A model generated the notes under the pieces. That model was not told the DNA's origin. It saw nothing but the letters and a program-made list of their open reading frames with translations, and did no database searches. 64,000 nt of DNA from Portibacter marinus (lineage in GTDB: Bacteria; Bacteroidota; Bacteroidia; Chitinophagales; Saprospiraceae): contig NZ_JAJNKB010000002.1 in assembly GCF_021533195.1 (NCBI RefSeq), forward strand, positions 744,001 through 808,000. The letters run 5' to 3'. Shown here in pieces: positions 48,289 through 60,090 of the stretch; within the stretch, counting starts at the first letter, position 1; each line of letters begins with the position of its first letter. A program made the position numbers and the translations under genes.

Positions 48289-49188
48289 ATGACAAGTAAT
48301 ACAAACATTATCCGTAAAGTCAATAAGAAAGCTCATAGACTATTATTTATGTTTGCAGTGATTTCGTTCAATACCGTTTTCACCCAAAGCAGCACCTCAC
48401 ACAATAGCATTTCAGCTGCAAAAAACTCAAACTTGGAATTACCTAACATACAGGTCATTCCAATAACAGATTCAAATACAAATAGAAAATACGAACTCTA
48501 TATAAAAGTTCCTGAAGAATACTCAGATAGTACAAAAACCAAATACCCTGTGCTTTATTTTACAGATGCCCTATGGCACATCGAAATCTTATCGGGTTCA
48601 ACGGAGTATCTCTTGGATAACTTGATTTTGGTCGGGATTTCATGGCAAAAAGGTGAAAATCCAGGTATTAGCCGCTATCGTGATTTTACACTTCTAAAGA
48701 ACATAAACCCCAAATATCAAAGTGGTGATGCGGAAAATCATCTGAAATTTATCCAAAATGATGTCTTTAAATATGTAGAAGAGAACTACAGAACACAACC
48801 TGAAAACCGGTCCTATTTTGGGTATTCTTTAGGTGGAACTTTTGGCACATATATTTTGCTGACACAACCTAAAACCTTCAATAATTACATTCTTGGCAGC
48901 CCCGAGACCTTATTGGACGACTCATTCATTCATCAACACTATTCCAGCTCCAACGATATACTGAAATATAAAAACGCCAATGTTTTTATCTCAACAGGCG
49001 AATTAGAACGAAGCGATTTAATGGAACAATCAAAAGGGATTCGTACAATGTTGAAAAGCTATGACAATCTATAATTGAAGTTTTTGACCATTCAATCCGC
49101 TGACCATAGCAGTGCGTTTCCAATGGCAACGGTAAAAAGTATGTACTGGCTATCAGACTTGATAAGAGATAACGATAGAAAATATTAA
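48289..49188 (+). pseudogene. Exported esterase (IroE/BES1-like alpha/beta hydrolase) with premature stop
   Basis: The product follows the secreted esterase pattern: signal region (about 1-33), strands around YPVLYFTDALWHIEI, and nucleophile elbow GYSLGG (Ser180). An in-frame TAA at 49072-49074 ends it after 261 residues. The same frame continues as LKFLTIQSADHSSAFPMATV, then SMYWLSDLIRDNDRKY to a TAA at 49186-49188. The His of ADHSS is the expected catalytic His, so the stop removes part of the triad. A single base change (GAA to TAA is one option) would explain it. The stop is a substitution rather than a homopolymer change, which favours a true pseudogene. Confidence 0.8.
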
Positions 49189-49240: not shown

Positions 49241-50410
49241 ATGAAGAATATTTTCTCAGTGATAGCAATAGGAATTTTAATGATTTCTTGTAATAACAAA
49301 GCCAAACAAATTAGCGACCAGATAAAGGTTGGTACCACCATTGATTTATCGGACTACGATTTACTAAGCGTGAACGGCAAACAAATACAAGGCGATAAAT
49401 TGATACTCATTGACTTCTGGGCAACGTGGTGCGGCCCTTGTATAGCTTCCTTTCCCCATTTAGAGAAAGTTCAAGATAGCTACGGAAACACTTTGCAAAT
49501 CATTGCTGTGAGTGATGAAAAGGTAGAAACAGTAGAAGGTTTTCTGAAAAAACGCGATTTTGATTTGACGTTTATGAGCGATCCTGAAAAAAGCCTGCAC
49601 AAGAAATTTGATATAAAAAGCATACCTATAAGTTGCCTACTCTCTGAAAATGGAAAATTTCTATGGGCTGGTAGTTCTGAAAACCTAGAGTACGTCTTAA
49701 AAAAATACTGGGAATCAGGTAACATATCGGATTTTGATCTTACAGAATTAAATCGACCTTATTACGATGCGAAAACCATTGAAAAAATAGAAAAAGCGAG
49801 TAATCATAAATTCTTGATACAGGAAGCAGAAAATCCTGAACGCTATATTGTTAGAAACCAAAAACTGGATAGTGAGCCAGTCAATATCGAATATATATCA
49901 GCAACCCTAACTGAAATAATTGTTGATTTCTTTAATGTCGACCGCAAGTATATTGTTAATAATCGCCCGGAATTAGACACTTTGTTATTGGATATAAAAG
50001 CTAAGAATGAAAATATATCCTATGGCCAGGCGAAAGAGAATATTTTGAATACGATTATGAAAAGCTATGATTTTGAAATACAAGAAAAAACTAAGCAGGC
50101 GGATATCTATGTTCTACAGGTAATTGATGAAGCAAAACTAAAAAAGTACATTGAGACCGTGGAAGGCGGTGGACAAGCTCAAGTAAAGGATGAAACTATT
50201 GAAATCACCAGGCTCAGCTTAGAGCAATTGGCAAGTTATTTTCAGAAGAAGTTAGACCCCTATATTCAATACAAGGGGACTGATAATTCAAAATTTAACT
50301 TTACAATACAGTATTTTGAAACCATAAGTGACTTAGAATCAAGCTTAAAAGAGATTGGTCTTTCTTTGGAAAAAACAGAAGGTGTAGTAGAAATTATAAC
50401 GATTAAATAA
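49241..50410 (+). CDS. TlpA-like thioredoxin lipoprotein with a C-terminal DUF3738-like domain
   Basis: The 389-residue product has a lipoprotein signal (lipobox MISC, Cys17) and a TlpA/ResA-type thioredoxin domain (about 28-165). Its active site is WCGPC (63-67) in DFWATWCGPC. A C-terminal region (about 200-389) has the pattern of DUF3738/TIGR03435 proteins (RLSLEQLASYFQKKL, KFNFTIQY). The enzyme would act as a periplasmic thiol-disulfide reductase. The fusion of the two domains is seen in some Bacteroidota. It is monocistronic and intact. Confidence 0.78.
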   Translation: MKNIFSVIAIGILMISCNNKAKQISDQIKVGTTIDLSDYDLLSVNGKQIQGDKLILIDFWATWCGPCIASFPHLEKVQDSYGNTLQIIAVSDEKVETVEGFLKKRDFDLTFMSDPEKSLHKKFDIKSIPISCLLSENGKFLWAGSSENLEYVLKKYWESGNISDFDLTELNRPYYDAKTIEKIEKASNHKFLIQEAENPERYIVRNQKLDSEPVNIEYISATLTEIIVDFFNVDRKYIVNNRPELDTLLLDIKAKNENISYGQAKENILNTIMKSYDFEIQEKTKQADIYVLQVIDEAKLKKYIETVEGGGQAQVKDETIEITRLSLEQLASYFQKKLDPYIQYKGTDNSKFNFTIQYFETISDLESSLKEIGLSLEKTEGVVEIITIK

Positions 50411-50956: not shown

Positions 50957-51406
50957 ATGAAAGAACTTAAAATTAGAAAAGCTACAAGAGATGATGTTCT
51001 AGTACTGTTCGACTTAATTATGGCTATTGCCATACATCACAATCAAGAAAAATTTGTCCTAACAGATAAAAAAGAACTTTTAAAGGCTGCCTTCGGCAAA
51101 GATCCAAAATTTGAAGTACTCTTAGCTGAATTCAAAGAAGAAATCGCCGGTTACCTATCCTATACCTGGAACTATTCCATCTGGAAGGGTAAAAACTATA
51201 TGAACTTAGATGACTTGTTTGTCAAAGAAAAGTTCAGGGGATTAAAAATCGGACTCGAGTTAATGCAAAAAGCAAAATCCATCAGCGAGAATGAAAGTAG
51301 CGGATTGATCCGTTGGGAAGTAGAAAAGAATAATCACAAAGCCATTGAATTTTACGAACGCTTAGGTACAAAAATGGTTGAGAAAGGAATTTTTAAATGG
51401 GTGTAG
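50957..51406 (+). CDS. GNAT-family N-acetyltransferase
   Basis: The 149-residue product has the GNAT fold: KIRKATRDDVLVLFDLIM, strand FEVLLAEFKEEIAGYLSY, LDDLFVKEKFRGLKIGLELM (motif A, acetyl-CoA loop) and NHKAIEFYERLGTKMVEKG (motif B). It resembles the SpeG/diamine-acetyltransferase-like branch in size and end motif, but the acceptor is not known. It is followed 4 bp later by a second, unrelated GNAT gene. Confidence 0.83.
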   Translation: MKELKIRKATRDDVLVLFDLIMAIAIHHNQEKFVLTDKKELLKAAFGKDPKFEVLLAEFKEEIAGYLSYTWNYSIWKGKNYMNLDDLFVKEKFRGLKIGLELMQKAKSISENESSGLIRWEVEKNNHKAIEFYERLGTKMVEKGIFKWV

Positions 51407-51410
51407 GTCT

Positions 51411-51905
51411 ATGCTAGGATTAGAAACTGAAAGACTAATATTTAGACAATGGGATATTTCGGACTTCGAACCGTTCTCTAAATTCTTTTCTGATGAAAAA
51501 AATGCCAGATTTGTAGGCGGTGTTAAAAATATGGAAGAAGCTTATCGACTAATGGCTACGTACATTGGTCACTATAAACTGAATGGCTATTCCTATTTGG
51601 CAGTGACCGAAAAGGCTACAAAAAATCTTATAGGAACTGTTGGGCTTTGGAATTCACAGCCTTGGCCGGAACCAGAATTAGGTTATTGGATACTACCTGA
51701 GCACCAAGGCAAAGGTTTTGCCACTGAAGCTGGACTTGCAGTCAAAAAGTTTGCTTTAGAAACTCTAAAATTGGAATCATTGGTAAGTTATATTGCCCCG
51801 TCTAATATTGCCTCCATAAAACTTGCATCAAGATTGGGAGCTTATTACACTTCAAACATCAATTTACTTAATTTTGGACTGCATTTTGTTTACAGGTACA
51901 AATAA
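51411..51905 (+). CDS. GNAT-family N-acetyltransferase (RimJ/RimL type)
   Basis: The 164-residue product begins MLGLETERLIFRQWDISDFE, the classic opening of RimJ/RimL-type acetyltransferases. It has ELGYWILPEHQGKGFATEA (acetyl-CoA loop) and APSNIASIKLASRLGAYY at the C-terminal end. The acceptor is unknown. The open frame runs back into the preceding GNAT gene, but the ATG at 51411 gives the proper N-terminus. Confidence 0.85.
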   Translation: MLGLETERLIFRQWDISDFEPFSKFFSDEKNARFVGGVKNMEEAYRLMATYIGHYKLNGYSYLAVTEKATKNLIGTVGLWNSQPWPEPELGYWILPEHQGKGFATEAGLAVKKFALETLKLESLVSYIAPSNIASIKLASRLGAYYTSNINLLNFGLHFVYRYK

Positions 51906-52298: not shown

Positions 52299-53654
52299 AT
52301 GGATATTGAAGGTAAATTGAATGTCGATCAATTAAAGCAAGCTATTGAAAAAGGCCAAATCGAAACAGTCATTTTTGGATTTATCGATCATTATGGACGT
52401 TTACTGGGAAAAAGGTTTGATGCTGATTTTTTTATTGAAAGTGGACTTGAAGAGGGAACCCATTGCTGTGATTACTTATTGACCACTGATATGGAAATGG
52501 AACCTGTTCAAGGTTTCGAATCTGCGAATTGGGAATTGGGATATGGAGATTTTCATTTGCATCCTGATTTAAACACCATAAGAGTAGCTACATGGCTAGA
52601 GAAAACAGTAATTGTGATCGGCGATTTAGACGAAGCCATCGCACCAAGGACAATATTGAAAAGACAAGTGGAAACAGCAGGTGATTTGGGTTTTAGGTCA
52701 ATGGGAGCATCAGAATTAGAACATTATTTGTACCTCAATTCGTATTCTGATTTTGATTCATTGAAGTTTGATCAAATGACAGCAGCGTCTCAATACCTGG
52801 AGGACTACCATATATTGCAAGGTAGTCGTCGAGAATCCTATACAGGAACGGTAAGAAAACATCTGAAAAAGTCCGGAATACCTGTCGAAAATTCCAAGGG
52901 AGAGTGGGGTAGAGGTCAACACGAAATCAATGTAAGGTACGCTGAAATTTTAGAGATGGCTGACCGGCATGTAGTCTTCAAACAATGTCTTAAGGAGATA
53001 GCTGATCAAATGGGTTGCGCTGTGACCTTTATGGCAAAGGTCGATGAAAATCAAGCGGGATCAAGTTGCCATATTCATCTAAGCCTTTGGAAGGATGGCA
53101 AGAATGCTTTCGTAGGTGATAAAGAATTGGGCCCTGTCAAGTGTTCAAATATATTCAAATGGTTTTTAGGAGGCTGGATCAAATATGTTCCAGACGTGAT
53201 GCCTTTTTATGCACCTACGGTCAATTCGTATAAGCGTTACCGTGATGGGTCCTGGGCCCCAACGAGATTGGCATGGAGTTATGATAATCGTACTGCAGGT
53301 TTCAGAGTTGTGGGCGAAGGTGAAAGTCTGCGAATCGAATGTAGAATTCCGGGTGCAGATTGTAATCCGTATCTTGCTTTTGCAGCATCATTAGCATGTG
53401 GGCTTCATGGGGTTCAGGAAGAGATAGCACCACCAGATATTTTTGAAGGCGACATTTACGCGGCCAACGAATTGCCTAGAGTACCTTACACACTAAAAGA
53501 GGCGAATGAGAGCTTTAGGAAAAGTGACTTTGCCCAATCAGTATTTGGAAAGGATGTAGTTGCTCACTATGCACATCATTTTGACATGGAAGTAAAGGCA
53601 TTTGAAAAAGCTGTGACGGATTGGGAGAGAAGACGATATTTTGAGAGAATTTGA
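52299..53654 (+). CDS. Glutamine-synthetase-like gamma-glutamyl-amine ligase
   Basis: This is an ATP-dependent ligase of the glutamine synthetase superfamily, predicted to attach gamma-glutamate to an amine. The 451-residue protein has the GS beta-grasp and catalytic domains: FIDHYGRLLGKRFDADFF, ASELEHYLY (metal-binding Glu pair), GRGQHEINVRY, SSCHIHLSL (catalytic-site His), NSYKRY and ECRIPGADCNPYLAFA. In true GlnA the last motif reads RFPDP; this form is typical of PuuA/GlnA4-like ligases. It opens an operon with dehydrogenases, a class I amidotransferase and an ethanolamine-permease-like transporter, so ethanolamine is the favoured amine. Putrescine or another amine remains possible. Confidence 0.85.
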   Translation: MDIEGKLNVDQLKQAIEKGQIETVIFGFIDHYGRLLGKRFDADFFIESGLEEGTHCCDYLLTTDMEMEPVQGFESANWELGYGDFHLHPDLNTIRVATWLEKTVIVIGDLDEAIAPRTILKRQVETAGDLGFRSMGASELEHYLYLNSYSDFDSLKFDQMTAASQYLEDYHILQGSRRESYTGTVRKHLKKSGIPVENSKGEWGRGQHEINVRYAEILEMADRHVVFKQCLKEIADQMGCAVTFMAKVDENQAGSSCHIHLSLWKDGKNAFVGDKELGPVKCSNIFKWFLGGWIKYVPDVMPFYAPTVNSYKRYRDGSWAPTRLAWSYDNRTAGFRVVGEGESLRIECRIPGADCNPYLAFAASLACGLHGVQEEIAPPDIFEGDIYAANELPRVPYTLKEANESFRKSDFAQSVFGKDVVAHYAHHFDMEVKAFEKAVTDWERRRYFERI

Positions 53655-53754
53655 GAACGAAGAAATTTTATGACCATGGAACTTTCAAATTCCATTTACC
53701 AAAAGGAATTTGCTGCTTTACTAACAATAATAATAAAACGACAACCAAAGCATA

Positions 53755-54528
53755 ATGAGACTTAAAAACAAGGTGGCGCTAATCACTGGCGGAGCTAGCG
53801 GAATTGGAAAAGAAAGTGCAATCTTATTTGCACAAGAAGGTGCACGGGTGACGGTGGTAGATGTCAATGAAGATGGTGGTAAGGAAACAGTTGAAATGAT
53901 TAGATCCATTGATGGGAAGGCCATTTTTCATAAAGCAGATGTATCACAAGAGAATGAGTGCAAACGTATGATTGAAATAATGGATAAAGAATACGGGGCA
54001 CTTCATATTTTATTCAACAATGCTGGCATCATGCACTCCGAAGATGGTGATAGCCAATCCACTGATGAACAGGTTTGGGATCTCACCATGAATGTCAATG
54101 TCAAAAGTGTATTTTTCGGATGTAAGTACGGTATCCCTTTGATACAAAAATCAGGTGGTGGATCTATAGTCAATACCGCTTCATTTGTTGCTCATTTGGG
54201 AGCTGCTACTCCACAAATTGCTTATACCGCGAGTAAAGGTGCCGTATTGGCAATGACACGCGAATTGGCAATCATCCACGCTCGTGAAAACATTAGGGTC
54301 AATGCGCTTTGTCCCGGGCCTTTGCGAACTGACTTACTAATGAATTTCCTAAATACAGAAGAGAAGAAGAATAGAAGATTAGTACATGTTCCTATGGGTC
54401 GATTTGGAGAGGCAAAAGAAATGGCAAAAGCTGCCTTATTTTTGGCCTCTGACGATTCTTCTTACATGACAGGAACAGAATTTCTTGTAGATGGAGGAAT
54501 CACTGCAGCATATGTGACTCCGGAGTAG
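53755..54528 (+). CDS. Short-chain dehydrogenase/reductase
   Basis: The 257-residue classical SDR has the cofactor motif TGGASGIG (11-18), NNAG (88-91) and the catalytic Ser143, Tyr157 and Lys161 (YTASK). Asp at the end of strand 2 (VVDVN) favours NAD(H). Within this operon it fits the oxidation of gamma-glutamylethanolamide, an alcohol, to its aldehyde. SDRs act on alcohols and not on amines, which argues for an amino alcohol rather than putrescine as the pathway substrate. It lies 100 bp after the ligase gene. Confidence 0.87.
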   Translation: MRLKNKVALITGGASGIGKESAILFAQEGARVTVVDVNEDGGKETVEMIRSIDGKAIFHKADVSQENECKRMIEIMDKEYGALHILFNNAGIMHSEDGDSQSTDEQVWDLTMNVNVKSVFFGCKYGIPLIQKSGGGSIVNTASFVAHLGAATPQIAYTASKGAVLAMTRELAIIHARENIRVNALCPGPLRTDLLMNFLNTEEKKNRRLVHVPMGRFGEAKEMAKAALFLASDDSSYMTGTEFLVDGGITAAYVTPE

Positions 54529-54566
54529 ATAGAATTTAGCAAAAAGTGTGAAAAGTCTTACGCTCA

Positions 54567-55934
54567 ATGAATAATAGTTTTAAAGTGATCAGTCCCATTG
54601 ACTTAACGATCTATCTTGAAAGAGCTTACGCTGGACCAAAGCAGATAGAAAATGTGCTATCTGCTGCTGCAAATGCTCAAAAAGAATGGCAAAAGAAATC
54701 CATAACAGATCGTGCTCTATTGTGCCAGAAAGCCGTAGACCTACTTGTTGCCAGGGCTGACCAAATTGGTGAAGAAATCACAATGCAAATGGGCCGTCCC
54801 ATTCGATATACTCCCAATGAAATAAGATCGGGTCTCAAAGAAAGAGCTGAATACATGATTCATATTGCTGAATCTGCTCTATCACCCATTGACATAGACA
54901 GCAAAAGAAAGATAAAAAGAGAGCCTATGGGTACAGTCATGGTGCTAGCTCCGTGGAATTATCCTTATCTAACCTCTATTAATGCGATCATTCCTGCTTT
55001 AATGGCAGGAAATACGGTCATTCTTAAGCATTCAGACCAAACGCCCCTCACTTCGGAAAGATACCAGGAAGCCTTTGACGAAGTCGGTCTGCCTGAGGGT
55101 GTTTTTCAATTTTTACACCTGAACCATGATCAAGTTGCGCAAGTCATCCAGGATTTTAGAATTAATCACGTGGCCTTCACAGGTTCAGTTGAGGGTGGAC
55201 ATGCCATACAGAAGGCCCTGTCCGGAAAGTTTATCACTTCCGGCCTGGAACTCGGAGGAAAGGATGCCGCCTACGTGACGGCTGATGCTGATGTTCAGAA
55301 GTCTGTAGAAAATCTGGTAGATGGTGCTTTTTTTAATTCAGGTCAGTCTTGTTGTGGCATTGAGAGAATTTATGTCCACGAATCTATTTATGAGTCATTT
55401 GTTCAATCATACGTATCATTGACTAAAAAATACGTAATGGGTAATCCTCTCCTGTCAGAAACAGAAATTGGGCCAATGGTTAAACCAGCAGCAGCCAGGT
55501 ATGTGATGGATGAGATCGACAAAGCTGTGGATCAAGGTGCACAAAAGCAAATTAAACAAGACCATCTCCATTCAAATGCGTATCTCTATCCAGAGGTCTT
55601 GACAAAAGTCAATCATTCCATGTCCATAATGACAAAGGAAACTTTTGGGCCAGTAGTTGGAATAATGTCCGTCCATAGTGATGAAGAGGCGATCAGATTG
55701 GTAAACGATAGTCCATATGGATTGACGGCATCTATTTGGAGTCAAGACAAAGCGCTAGCCTGGCACATTGGTGATCAATTAGAGGTAGGGACTGTGTTTA
55801 TGAATAGATGCGATTACCTCGATCCTGAACTTGCCTGGACCGGAGTGAAAAAAAGCGGTAAAGGATGTACCTTATCCAGCATTGGTTATGAACAGTTGAC
55901 CAGACCCAAATCATTTCATTTCAGAACGCTATGA
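54567..55934 (+). CDS. NAD(P)-dependent aldehyde dehydrogenase
   Basis: The 455-residue ALDH has PWNYP (129-133, Asn131), the cofactor Lys in ILKHSD (154), LELGGKD (general base Glu228) and the catalytic Cys in GQSCCG (Cys262). Length is slightly short at the N-terminus, as in the succinate-semialdehyde-like branch. The predicted role is to oxidise gamma-glutamyl-aminoacetaldehyde to gamma-glutamylglycine. It overlaps the amidotransferase gene by 4 bp (ATGA), showing co-translation. Confidence 0.87.
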   Translation: MNNSFKVISPIDLTIYLERAYAGPKQIENVLSAAANAQKEWQKKSITDRALLCQKAVDLLVARADQIGEEITMQMGRPIRYTPNEIRSGLKERAEYMIHIAESALSPIDIDSKRKIKREPMGTVMVLAPWNYPYLTSINAIIPALMAGNTVILKHSDQTPLTSERYQEAFDEVGLPEGVFQFLHLNHDQVAQVIQDFRINHVAFTGSVEGGHAIQKALSGKFITSGLELGGKDAAYVTADADVQKSVENLVDGAFFNSGQSCCGIERIYVHESIYESFVQSYVSLTKKYVMGNPLLSETEIGPMVKPAAARYVMDEIDKAVDQGAQKQIKQDHLHSNAYLYPEVLTKVNHSMSIMTKETFGPVVGIMSVHSDEEAIRLVNDSPYGLTASIWSQDKALAWHIGDQLEVGTVFMNRCDYLDPELAWTGVKKSGKGCTLSSIGYEQLTRPKSFHFRTL

Positions 55935-56596
55935 AAGTAGGACTCATTCTCTGCGACCATGTGCATCCTGATTACGTCAAGCAATTCGGGAATTATCCCA
56001 CCATGTTCTCTGATCTTTTTCCAGATTACCATTTAAAAATTTACGATGTGACGAAGCTGGAATTTCCTAATGATATTGATGAGTGTGACGCCTATATGGG
56101 TACTGGGTCCAAATTCTCCGTGTATGACAGCCATGAATGGATTACTGAAACACTAAAATTTGTTCGTCAATTATACCAAGCTAAGAAATGCTTTGTAGGT
56201 GTATGTTTCAGTCACCAATTGATAGGTCAGGCTTTGGGTGGAGAGGTAACCAGAAATGAGCTGGGATGGAGTGTGGGCGTTCATAGATTTGATCCTTTAG
56301 GGTTTAATTTACTGATGATGTGCCAGGATCACATCAGTAGCTGTCCCCCTCAAACTAAAGTCATTGCCTCAACTCCTAAGTGTCCCAATGCAATGATTCA
56401 AGTAGGTGAGCATTTTTTAGGAGTTCAGGCACATCCGGAGTTTACGAAAGCATATGATCGGGTGCTGATGGAAAATAGAGTGGATAGGATGGGTCAACTT
56501 ACGGTCGAACAGGGCATTCAAAGTCTTGATATACCTGTTCATCGCGAAGAAATAAAAGCATACATATCAGCATTTATCCTTAATAACCAGCGATGA
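55931..56596 (+). CDS. Class I glutamine amidotransferase-like gamma-glutamyl hydrolase
   Basis: The 221-residue product has the class I amidotransferase catalytic triad: Cys92 in GVCFSHQ, His168 and Glu170 in GVQAHPEF. It has no fused synthase domain, so it acts as a free hydrolase. In this operon the expected reaction is the release of glutamate from gamma-glutamylglycine (or a similar gamma-glutamyl product), the role that PuuD has in the putrescine pathway. It overlaps both neighbours by 4 bp. Confidence 0.82.
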   Translation: MKVGLILCDHVHPDYVKQFGNYPTMFSDLFPDYHLKIYDVTKLEFPNDIDECDAYMGTGSKFSVYDSHEWITETLKFVRQLYQAKKCFVGVCFSHQLIGQALGGEVTRNELGWSVGVHRFDPLGFNLLMMCQDHISSCPPQTKVIASTPKCPNAMIQVGEHFLGVQAHPEFTKAYDRVLMENRVDRMGQLTVEQGIQSLDIPVHREEIKAYISAFILNNQR

Positions 56597-57900
56597 CGAA
56601 CCAATTAAAGAAAACATTGGGGCCAGTAATGCTTTGGGGACTTGGTGTCGGATATGTCATTTCAGGAATGTATTTCGGGTGGAACTTAGGGTTGGAAAAG
56701 GGTGGTACCTTAGGCTTGGCGGTCGCTACAGGCTTTATTATTCTGATGTATCTCAGTTTTACATTTAGCTATACTGAATTGGCATGTGCCATTCCGAAAG
56801 CCGGAGGTGCATTTGATTACGCCATTCGCGCTCTCGGACCAAAGTGGGGTTTCATTGGAGGGATGGCACAAAATATTGAATTTATCTTTGCTCCGCCAGC
56901 CATTGCCTTTGCCATCGGCGCTTATATTAATCTATTCTTGCCTTCAATTCCCATCATATGGATTGCCATCGTAATCTATCTGATTTTCACCTTCATTAAT
57001 ATAAGGGGAGTCAAGTTTGCTGCTTCATTTGAGTTGATCATTACCATCATTGCAGTCATTGAATTACTGATCTTTGCCGGAGCCGCGGCACCCTCATTTG
57101 AATGGGAAAATATGACTCAGAATGCTTTACCTCATGGCTGGGGAGGAGCATTTGCAGCCATTCCATTTGCCATTTGGTTTTTCTTGGCCATAGAGGGCGT
57201 AGCCAATGTTGCAGAAGAAACCATCAATCCTCAACGTAACATATTGATAGGATTCGGTTCTGCAATACTCACTCTGGTCGTTTTATGTTTGTTGACTTTT
57301 TCTACTTCTGTGGGAGTGGCAGGGTGGGAAGCCATTGTGTACGAAACACCCGGGGCAGCTGCATCTGATTCACCTTTGCCACTGGCCTTGAAACGTATTT
57401 ACGGGGAGAGTCATTTGCTTTTTAAACTGGTGACCTCCATTGGTATCTTTGGACTGGTTGCATCTTTTCATGGTATTATCCTTGCTGCAGGTCGGGCCAC
57501 ATTTGAATTTGGACGAGTAGGTTTTGCTCCTAAAGCGATCGGTCGTGTTCATTCAAAATATCGTACTCCGGCCAATGCATTAATGGTCAATACCCTGATT
57601 GGTATTATAGCTTTGTTTACTGGAAAAACAGGAGACATCATTACCATTGCTTGTTTCGGAGCATTGGGCCTATACATCATTTCTATGGTTTCTATGATCA
57701 TCTTAAGAAGGAAAGAACCTCACTTAGAAAGGCCCTTCAAAGTGCCATTTTATCCATGGACACCGATACTTGCGCTTGTTATTGCCAGCATTTCGTTAAT
57801 TGCGATTACCATATATAATCCTTATCATGCGCTTGTTTTCGCAGGCATTATGATTGCTGGATATCTCGTATTTATGGGAACAAAAAGAGGTTCGATTTAA
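56593..57900 (+). CDS. APC-family permease, ethanolamine-permease-like
   Basis: The 435-residue transporter has about 12 membrane helices of the amino acid-polyamine-organocation family. Its N-terminal half (LGVGYVISGMYFGWNLGL, YTELACAIPKAGGAFDYA) and the LAIEGVANVAEETINPQRN segment match ethanolamine permeases (EutP/Eat type) better than amino acid permeases. It is the last gene of the operon and overlaps the hydrolase gene by 4 bp. The predicted substrate is ethanolamine; a related amino alcohol cannot be excluded. Confidence 0.85.
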   Translation: MTNQLKKTLGPVMLWGLGVGYVISGMYFGWNLGLEKGGTLGLAVATGFIILMYLSFTFSYTELACAIPKAGGAFDYAIRALGPKWGFIGGMAQNIEFIFAPPAIAFAIGAYINLFLPSIPIIWIAIVIYLIFTFINIRGVKFAASFELIITIIAVIELLIFAGAAAPSFEWENMTQNALPHGWGGAFAAIPFAIWFFLAIEGVANVAEETINPQRNILIGFGSAILTLVVLCLLTFSTSVGVAGWEAIVYETPGAAASDSPLPLALKRIYGESHLLFKLVTSIGIFGLVASFHGIILAAGRATFEFGRVGFAPKAIGRVHSKYRTPANALMVNTLIGIIALFTGKTGDIITIACFGALGLYIISMVSMIILRRKEPHLERPFKVPFYPWTPILALVIASISLIAITIYNPYHALVFAGIMIAGYLVFMGTKRGSI

Positions 57901-57921: not shown

Positions 57922-60090
57922 ATGATGATGAATAGGAATATAGTATGGGTTCTTTTCTTTGCTTTTGGTTTGATGTCAACGAGCTTTGCACAAGATGCCC
58001 TTTCAGCAAAGGATTACGAACAGGCAGAAAGTATGTTGAGCTGGAATGTTAGAAAGCTCGTAGATTGCATGAATGTTGATCCCAATTGGGTCGATGATGA
58101 AACATTTTGGTACAAGAATCTCATTCCCAATGGTGTTGAGTACGTAATGTATCACATTGGCCAGGAAAGAAAGCAGGTATTGAAAGATAATAGTGAGTTG
58201 CCAGATGGAAAACCGCAGCCCATTTACGATAGGAGAAAGGAGGTGGTCTCACCGGACGGTAAGAAAGTGGTGTACATAGATGATTGGAATTTATGGATGC
58301 GCCACCTGGAAACCGGTCAAGAAACCCAACTAACTACCGACGGGTTTGAAAACTTTGGTTACGCGACTGATAATGCCGGATGGAGACAAGGTCCCGGACC
58401 CATTGTACTTTGGTCTCCCGATTCAAAAAAAATTGCCACTTACAGACAAGATCAAAGGCACGTTTCCGATATGTACTTGGTCAAAACGACCGTTGGGGCT
58501 CCAGAATTAATGCAATGGAAATATCCTCTTCCTATGGATGAAAAGATCATACAGATTCATAGGGTGATCATTGACACTGAATCTGGAGAAATTGTCAAAC
58601 TGAATATAGATCCTGACCCAAGAAGAGGCACACTCTGCGATGATATTTCGTGTAGTGGTGCATTCGATGACAATGAATGGAGTCCCGATAGCAAAAAACT
58701 GGCTTTCGTTTCATCTTCCCGAGATCATAAAGTGGCACAACTACGCATCGCGGATGCAGCCACCGGTGAGGTAAGGGATGTTTACAAAGAAGTTTCTCCG
58801 ACGCAATATGAATCAGGTCGTAGGGCTATCAACTGGCGGTATTTGCCTTTAACTGAGGAGTTTATCTGGTACTCAGAGAAGGATAATTGGGGTCATTTAT
58901 ATTTACATGATTTGCAAACAGGAAAGGTTAAGAATCAAATCACAGAAGGAGAGTGGATCGTCAATAAAATAAGACATATTGATAGAGAAGCTAGGAAAAT
59001 CTATTTTGAAGCTCAAGGGCGTGAAGAAGGAAGAGACCCTTACTTCAATCATTTTTATTCTATTGATTTTTCTGGAGAGAATCTCAAACTCTTAACACCG
59101 GAAAATGGAAATCATAGTATAGAATTATCTCCCAATCATCAGTACTTTATTGACAACTATTCTCAACCTGATGTTCCGCCGGTTTCCGTTTTGAGATCAA
59201 TCAATGGAGATCTGCTAGATACACTTGAGGAAGCCAATATTTCCAGATTGTTGGCATCAGGTTGGCAACCACCTAAACCGATCAAGGTTAAATCGGATGA
59301 TGGAAAATATGATTTATACGGATTGATGTATACCCCCACTGATCTGGATCAAAACAAGAAATATCCGATCGTCAATTACGTTTATCCGGGACCTCAGGGA
59401 GGCGGGGTCGGAACGAGATCTTTTAGTCCGGGTAGACGTGATCATCAGGCGTTGGCAGAACTGGGATTTGTAGTAGTAGTGGTAGACGGTACTTGTAATC
59501 CGGGAAGGTCGAAGGCCTTTCATGATGAATGTTATGGTGATATGTCAGTCAACACGCTTCCTGACCAGATTTCGGCTTTAAGGCAATTGGCGAAAGATCA
59601 TCCCTATATGGATCTGGAAAGGGTAGGAATATGGGGGCACTCAGGAGGTGGATTTGCTACGGCAGCTGCGCTTTTTGATTATCCCGATTTTTATGATGTT
59701 GGGATTTCTGAATCTGGTAATCACGATAACAGGAACTATGAAGATGATTGGGGTGAGCGATATGTCGGGTTGGAAGTTGGAGACAACTATGAAAAACAGG
59801 CCAATCAATTGAAGGCGAAAAATCTGAAGGGAAAGCTATTGCTTGCTCATGGCATGATGGATGACAATGTGCCTCACTATAATACGAACCTGGTGGTGGA
59901 TGCATTGATAAAAGCCAACAAGGATTTTGACCTCATCATGTTTCCGAATGCTAGACATGGTTATGGCGCGGACACCTTTTACATGACCCGTAAGAGATGG
60001 GATTACTTCGTGAAACACCTACTAGGAAAGGAGCCTCCGAAAGAGTATAAGATAGAATATCAGCAGGATACAAGAGTCAGCAGAGCCTAA
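57922..60090 (+). CDS. Dipeptidyl-peptidase-IV-like S9 serine peptidase
   Basis: The 722-residue exported enzyme has a signal peptide (about 1-23, ending TSFAQ), an N-terminal propeller (about 60-470) and an S9 catalytic domain with GHSGGG (nucleophile Ser). The Asp in GMMDDNVP and His in ARHGYG complete the triad. It would cut dipeptides after Pro or Ala from peptides in the periplasm or outside. It starts 21 bp after the permease gene, so read-through from the amine operon is possible, but a functional link is not evident. Confidence 0.87.
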   Translation: MMMNRNIVWVLFFAFGLMSTSFAQDALSAKDYEQAESMLSWNVRKLVDCMNVDPNWVDDETFWYKNLIPNGVEYVMYHIGQERKQVLKDNSELPDGKPQPIYDRRKEVVSPDGKKVVYIDDWNLWMRHLETGQETQLTTDGFENFGYATDNAGWRQGPGPIVLWSPDSKKIATYRQDQRHVSDMYLVKTTVGAPELMQWKYPLPMDEKIIQIHRVIIDTESGEIVKLNIDPDPRRGTLCDDISCSGAFDDNEWSPDSKKLAFVSSSRDHKVAQLRIADAATGEVRDVYKEVSPTQYESGRRAINWRYLPLTEEFIWYSEKDNWGHLYLHDLQTGKVKNQITEGEWIVNKIRHIDREARKIYFEAQGREEGRDPYFNHFYSIDFSGENLKLLTPENGNHSIELSPNHQYFIDNYSQPDVPPVSVLRSINGDLLDTLEEANISRLLASGWQPPKPIKVKSDDGKYDLYGLMYTPTDLDQNKKYPIVNYVYPGPQGGGVGTRSFSPGRRDHQALAELGFVVVVVDGTCNPGRSKAFHDECYGDMSVNTLPDQISALRQLAKDHPYMDLERVGIWGHSGGGFATAAALFDYPDFYDVGISESGNHDNRNYEDDWGERYVGLEVGDNYEKQANQLKAKNLKGKLLLAHGMMDDNVPHYNTNLVVDALIKANKDFDLIMFPNARHGYGADTFYMTRKRWDYFVKHLLGKEPPKEYKIEYQQDTRVSRA

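Follow-up and report, generated by a model that had tools for sequence, protein, structure and literature searches.

Five intact, tightly packed genes on the plus strand of a 64,000-nucleotide stretch of Portibacter marinus DNA (the window: positions 744,001 to 808,000 of contig NZ_JAJNKB010000002.1, assembly GCF_021533195.1) probably encode a cobalamin-independent route for the use of ethanolamine by gamma-glutamylation. The operon occupies positions 52299-57900 in the open reading frame (ORF) list of the window and consists of a ligase related to glutamine synthetase (GS), a short-chain dehydrogenase (SDR), an aldehyde dehydrogenase (ALDH), a hydrolase with the class I glutamine amidotransferase (GATase) fold and a permease of the APC family (Table 1). 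An initial annotation, made from the letters of the sequence and its ORFs, had listed the same five co-directed genes, and both the intact ORFs and the profile matches agree with the families it gave.

Genes for alcohol oxidation, aldehyde oxidation and gamma-glutamyl hydrolysis are all present beside the ligase, and the catalytic steps, their order and the substrate, as we infer them, are as follows. The permease would import ethanolamine, and the ligase would couple it to the gamma-carboxyl of glutamate, using ATP. The SDR would convert the hydroxyl to an aldehyde, which the ALDH would take to gamma-glutamylglycine, and the hydrolase would cleave this product to glycine and glutamate, the latter being reused. 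The glutamate tag would shield the amine and stop the amino-aldehyde from reacting. That an SDR is followed by an ALDH is consistent with a tagged amine bearing a primary alcohol, and the best evidence as to which amino alcohol is involved comes from the permease.

The ligase and the genes around it

By curated standards the ligase is neither a glutamine synthetase (GlnA) nor a gamma-glutamylputrescine synthetase (PuuA), because it scores below the cut-offs of both models: 235.5 bits against 429.15 for TIGR00653 (GlnA), which gave its best NCBIfam score, and 185 bits against 650 for NF045547 (PuuA). Its closest matches in the Protein Data Bank (PDB) are 11zs_A (468.5 bits) and 5dm3_A (407 bits), the third reaching only 165 bits. 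In a tree of 51 ligases, which carries long-branch warnings on GlnA, PuuA and loci L158 and L154, the window ligase falls into a clade of 23 rows (clade A; support 100/100) drawn from Bacteroidota, Chloroflexota, Planctomycetota, Deinococcota, Actinomycetota and Myxococcota. Clade A groups at 92/86 with the Eto clade (82/89) and L154, a long-branch Rhodococcus sequence. The Eto clade holds both PDB chains and the Ruegeria and Paracoccus operons, and with moderate support clade A appears to stand next to it; the window ligase is not inside it, clade A being separate at 100/100. Outside both lie the actinobacterial GlnA4-like ligases, IpuC (37% identical to the window ligase), PuuA and GlnA. The GlnA4-like clade (100/98), which does not include the window ligase, consists of stand-ins picked by their neighbouring genes (L126, L129, L132 and L155), SCO1613 itself not being in the tree. 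The initial annotation had spoken of a GlnA4-based route; this kind of pathway is indeed known from Streptomyces, but the ligase lies nearer to those of the Eto operons.

At the position of the E. coli ammonium-site residue E327 (328 counting Met), the window ligase has W319. Tryptophan occupies this position in 84 of 86 aligned rows (one row being a duplicate, L050, and another a second ligase, L063b), and the other two rows have F and Y. The replacement is in keeping with F331 of GlnA4, which stands at the ammonium-site position in the excerpts of PMC6529630, where the GlnA4 residues for metal, glutamate and phosphate binding are also listed. The twelve metal, glutamate and phosphate positions, matched to GlnA4 by motif and spacing and not by alignment of the GlnA4 sequence itself, are identical in all 86 rows.

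The five-gene association recurs, in whole or in part, among 84 related ligase loci and is thus not a matter of chance. These loci are the best relatives of the ligase (57-70% identical, two duplicates dropped, only some of them placed in the tree), and one search behind them took the best 80 of 591 related stretches. Counting by tblastn, with an SDR accepted if at least 55% identical and within 7 kb, we found an SDR at 67 of the 84 loci, an ALDH at 46, a PF00117 or C26 hydrolase homologue at 36, a permease homologue at 21 and all five genes at 10; an iron-containing alcohol dehydrogenase (Fe-ADH) was present at two, and EutB and N-formylglutamate amidohydrolase at none. For the 49 loci flanked by 5 kb on each side, the counts were 41 for the SDR, 29 for the ALDH, 21 for the hydrolase and 9 for the permease. 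The core is the ligase with the SDR, and the remaining parts vary or sit elsewhere. A genome of the same genus (G154, locus L012) has all five genes in identical order. Ligases at E <= 1e-100 occur in 11 of 395 Bacteroidota genomes, seven of them in clade A and four classed as Eto-type from their identity (45-50%); the tree puts three of these four in the Eto clade.

The operon looks like a mosaic, with an SDR as in GlnA4-like clusters, an ALDH as in Eto operons and a hydrolase resembling gamma-glutamyl peptidase 1 (GGP1). Its SDR is 48-53% identical to those of the GlnA4-like loci from Embleya (L126), Nonomuraea (L129) and Arthrobacter (L132 and L155), while its ALDH shares 47-54% identity with the enzymes of Eto-clade loci (L127, L157 and L131) and 28-32% with those of GlnA4-like loci. 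The best PDB match of the hydrolase is GGP1 (9k7i_A, E = 2.8e-16), which we take to be a plant enzyme. The hydrolase is unlike both other types encountered, namely the N-formylglutamate amidohydrolase family (PF05013) of the Ruegeria Eto locus and the C26 peptidase (PF07722) of the clade-B and Ipu loci tested, a homologue of which is also found in L126. What is new is a third assembly of the glutamylation route, the type of pathway itself being already known. The roles given to the five genes in the initial annotation, and its argument that an SDR points to an alcohol group on the substrate, are supported by the gene families, by the GGP1 match and by the linkage of the SDR at 67 of the 84 loci.

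The permease and its catabolic partners

The window permease scores 440.3 bits against TIGR00908 ('ethanolamine permease'), above the cut-off of 381.75, and 19 of the 395 Bacteroidota genomes have a protein above this cut-off. Every one of the 19 carries exactly one catabolic set and none has two: EutB in eight, a cassette of clade-B ligase, Fe-ADH and C26 hydrolase in seven, a clade-A ligase in three and an Eto-type ligase in one. The partner lies directly at the permease for seven EutB sets, seven Fe-ADH sets and two sets of the window's kind (the window and G154), and on another contig in three genomes (EutB in G367, the clade-A ligase in G186 and the Eto-type ligase in G215). At the seven EutB-adjacent permeases EutC is next or close by, and one has a 124-aa ORF between permease and EutB; the naming of EutB and EutC is based on protein family for L142 and on similarity for the others. 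EutB was found in 12 of the 395 genomes, eight of which carry the permease. In a midpoint-rooted permease tree, an EutB-side clade of 8 rows (95/90), including G367, is sister to a glutamylation-side clade of 20 rows (100/100), including G186. These sister clades are most simply explained by a shared ancestral substrate, which would be ethanolamine.

Seven permeases come from genomes that lack EutB as well as any clade-A or Eto-type ligase, and their TIGR00908 scores are like that of the window permease. We had considered treating the TIGR00908 label as weak evidence, and dropped this once the neighbourhoods of the seven showed a second glutamylation cassette. In these Bacteroidota genomes (L133-L139) the permease (58-69% identical to the window's) starts a cassette of clade-B ligase (32-35%), Fe-ADH, C26 hydrolase and ALDH, with the hydrolase fused to the ALDH ORF in L135. 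It looks like another cobalamin-free amino-alcohol route. Clade-B ligases occur in 40 genomes, 6 of which have EutB. All 33 clade-B genomes apart from the seven with the permease-linked cassette (L161-L193) carry a different trio, made up of the ligase, a protein of about 345 aa and a HAD hydrolase, in some cases beside a GSII-like gene, so that cassette and EutB do not occur together. The protein of about 345 aa has no Pfam match (L167 only), the HAD hydrolase matches PF13344/PF13242 (L168 only), and no Fe-ADH homologue was found in the stretch around the clade-B ligase in any of the 33 trio genomes. Judged by its genes, the trio is not one for amino-alcohol oxidation.

Chance figures for this pattern (5e-25, or 7e-17 if clade B is excluded) take no account of how the genomes are related, and there is some circularity in the first, since it was inspection of the permease neighbourhoods that revealed the clade-B cassette; we do not lean on them. 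We are nevertheless inclined to a broader view, in which one ethanolamine-permease lineage in Bacteroidota would be coupled to three unrelated modules (EutBC; clade-B ligase, Fe-ADH and C26 hydrolase; clade-A ligase, SDR and GGP1-like hydrolase) that are swapped genome by genome. Cobalamin-free glutamylation would then be at least as common a partner as EutBC (nine versus seven adjoining sets in this sample), and a GGP1-type peptidase would be a previously unassigned gamma-glutamylglycine hydrolase.

Known pathways and alternative readings

Excerpts of PMC10132767 describe an operon of Phaeobacter sp. MED193 that has the same roles and is raised on phosphorylethanolamine, and they cite Vetting et al. 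for Chromohalobacter (salexigens) and Agrobacterium (tumefaciens C58). The layout of that operon is matched by the Ruegeria and Paracoccus operons (RpiR, N-formylglutamate amidohydrolase, TRAP, GS, ALDH and Fe-ADH), and the families of the Phaeobacter dehydrogenase and hydrolase are taken from these annotated relatives. The four chemical steps of the Eto operon equal those proposed here, the nearest ligase clade holds operons of Eto layout, and the ALDH is of the same type. The Eto operon, however, has a TRAP transporter (EtoVWX), an Fe-ADH and an enzyme of the N-formylglutamate amidohydrolase family in place of the window's APC permease, SDR and GGP1-like hydrolase, and none of these three Eto components was found among the operon and flanking proteins tested.

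In Streptomyces coelicolor, GlnA4 is a gamma-glutamylethanolamide synthetase required for growth on ethanolamine, and its cluster (SCO1610-1615) includes genes for an SDR, an ALDH, a transporter (in other streptomycetes) and a glutamine amidotransferase, the later steps being predicted; SCO1615 is assigned to the formylglutamate amidohydrolase family in the discussion (excerpts of PMC6529630). Gamma-glutamylation in the GlnA4 and Eto systems is reviewed in PMC9397018 (excerpts). The GlnA4 cluster shares with the window the roles of SDR, ALDH, GS-like ligase, transporter and amidotransferase, and its SDR is of the same family (48% identity with Embleya L126 as stand-in). It differs in that the ligases of the stand-ins belong to another clade, the ALDH is of another type (about 30% identity), the stand-in hydrolase is a C26 homologue and not GGP1-like, and an EpuRI regulator stands beside glnA4, with none found among the flanking proteins tested here. 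The Streptomyces precedent cited in the initial annotation is thus sound in the case of GlnA4 (PMC6529630) but too narrow, given Chromohalobacter, Agrobacterium and Phaeobacter (PMC10132767). Its remark that no description from Bacteroidota was known agrees with our search, which found none among the matches listed in open-licence literature, most subscription journals not being covered. Three Streptomyces plasmids (L152, L153 and L158) carry an amino acid permease paired with a GS-like gene near biosynthetic-type genes (FxLD lanthipeptide genes in L152).

The short Eut route (EutBC with the Eat permease) uses the same permease family for uptake. EutBC requires cobalamin and yields acetaldehyde and ammonia. 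The initial annotation had claimed that the pathway does without EutBC, and both EutB and EutC gave zero matches in the 5.19-Mb genome carrying the window, with a positive E. coli control; the Eut pathway was rejected because of their absence. The Ipu and Puu pathways likewise proceed by gamma-glutamylation, oxidation and deglutamylation, but the tagged amine is the substrate of a P450 (Ipu) or of the amine oxidase PuuB (Puu), and their ligases belong to clades other than the window's. We rejected Ipu because no P450 is among the proteins tested and the ligase lies outside the IpuC clade, and Puu because of the NF045547 score and because no PuuB-type oxidase is among the proteins tested.

The same chemistry could serve another primary amino alcohol, such as alaninol (2-amino-1-propanol), 3-amino-1-propanol or serinol, yielding alanine, beta-alanine or serine. 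In the isopropylamine cluster of Paenarthrobacter aurescens TC1, IpuC, an SDR and a C26 hydrolase occur together with a P450, and gamma-glutamyl-L-alaninol is an intermediate of that pathway (excerpts of PMC6776027); the glutamylation-linked permease subclade is, moreover, distinct from the EutB-linked one. We nonetheless find such a substrate unlikely, since IpuC belongs neither to clade A nor to the Eto clade, the flanking proteins tested include no P450, and the sister permeases lie beside EutB. Ethanolamine is also by far commoner in nature than alaninol-type substrates. The ethanolamine proposed at the outset is accordingly the best choice, with independent support from the pattern of permease and modules, and leaves some room for near analogues (alaninol, aminopropanol).

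That the ligase tags a diamine or polyamine in a route of Puu type is very improbable: no amine oxidase or aminotransferase is found among the operon and flanking proteins tested, the ligase reaches 185 of 650 bits on the GGputSyn model, PuuA is distant in the tree, and a close SDR stands beside 67 of 84 related ligases. These points outweigh a general scheme that is the same as PuuA-PuuC-PuuD and a Rhizobium relative of the ligase (47% identical) that occurs with an aminotransferase and no annotated alcohol dehydrogenase in its cluster. Although TIGR00653 is its top NCBIfam score, it is scarcely credible that the operon ligase is a genuine glutamine synthetase whose neighbours belong to some other pathway, in view of the shortfall of that score, the change from E327 to W319, the separate short glutamine synthetase in the genome and the conserved linkage with SDR, ALDH and hydrolase. 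A Rhizobium plasmid cluster (L131:4005-10778) has an Eto-like ligase, an ALDH, an N-formylglutamate amidohydrolase, an APC permease and an aminotransferase in the alcohol dehydrogenase's place, which suggests a diamine as the substrate of that cluster.

Several observations weigh against the ethanolamine pathway as proposed. Among the 49 flanked loci, 8 lack a nearby SDR, 20 an ALDH and 28 a hydrolase, and only 6 have the full five. The clade-A ligase of G186 is isolated (L014:10626-12305), with an acyl-CoA ligase-like gene adjoining, no homologue of the SDR, the ALDH or the hydrolase nearby in L014, and the permease on a different contig. The permease family is absent from 4 of 12 EutB genomes, 4 of 7 clade-A genomes and 3 of 4 Eto-type genomes. 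Because the window permease shares only 42-50% identity with the EutB-adjacent permeases, and the glutamylation-linked permeases form their own subclade, specificity could have shifted, in this case to a near analogue of ethanolamine. The flanking proteins tested include no regulator, and there is no clear promoter. Finally, glutamate is released before alcohol oxidation in the Ipu pathway (excerpts of PMC6776027), so the gene set alone does not fix the order of steps; for an amino alcohol imported as such, early release of the tag would only undo the ligase step, which would make oxidation before hydrolysis sensible.

Operon layout, surroundings and wider meaning

Table 1. Genes of the proposed ethanolamine operon, with positions in the window.
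Product	Positions	Strand	Profile match and proposed role
GS-like gamma-glutamyl-amine ligase, 451 aa	52299-53654	+	PF00120, 323.6 bits; proposed gamma-glutamylethanolamide synthetase
Short-chain dehydrogenase (classical SDR), 257 aa	53755-54528	+	PF13561/PF00106; proposed gamma-glutamylethanolamide dehydrogenase
Aldehyde dehydrogenase (Aldedh), 455 aa	54567-55934	+	PF00171, 405 bits; proposed gamma-glutamyl-aminoacetaldehyde dehydrogenase
Class I GATase-fold hydrolase, 221 aa	55931-56596	+	PF00117 only; proposed gamma-glutamylglycine hydrolase
APC-family permease, 435 aa	56593-57900	+	TIGR00908; proposed ethanolamine uptake

Spacers of 100 and 38 bases precede the SDR and ALDH genes, and the ALDH/hydrolase and hydrolase/permease junctions are 4-base ATGA overlaps, as in a single transcript. 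Motifs that are presumably catalytic are present in the SDR (TGGASGIG at residue 11, NNAG at 88 and YTASK at 157), the ALDH (LELGGKD at 227 and GQSC at 259) and the hydrolase (GVCFSHQ at 90 and AHPE at 167). Elsewhere, the genome has a separate short glutamine synthetase of 334 aa (PF00120 and PF03951), presumably of GSII type to judge by its length, which can supply glutamine and so leave the operon ligase free for catabolism. It also encodes GcvP, which provides a use for the glycine product.

The flanks of the operon are unremarkable. Upstream lie genes for an esterase, a thioredoxin-like protein, two GNAT proteins and tRNA-Met, and downstream those for an S9 peptidase and a malic enzyme-phosphotransacetylase. 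The S9/DPP IV-type peptidase gene (57922-60090, plus strand) starts 21 bases past the permease stop; at the same-genus locus L012 it is about 1.9 kb downstream, so it is probably not part of the operon. The two GNAT acetyltransferase genes overlap (50957-51905, plus strand; PF00583 and PF13302). A 261-aa ORF (48289-49074, plus strand) covers positions 1-159 of 251 of PF00756 (putative esterase) and may end early, and the gene at 49241-50410 (plus strand) encodes a fusion of a thioredoxin-like domain and DUF3738. The Bacteroidota promoter pattern occurs 3 times in the window against 2.9 expected and nowhere near the operon, and scans of the window for sigma-70 promoters and terminators gave no excess.

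Ethanolamine is a major breakdown product of membrane lipids, and Bacteroidota are prominent degraders of organic matter. Ocean matches to etoX are about 94% Alphaproteobacteria (excerpts of PMC10132767). A cobalamin-free route in Bacteroidota, if it is real, would have escaped searches based on eutBC or on the TRAP protein EtoX. The most useful addition made here is the apparent exchange of modules behind one permease, which would make ethanolamine use simple to test for in genomes and would supply a clean panel of enzymes for side-by-side comparison.

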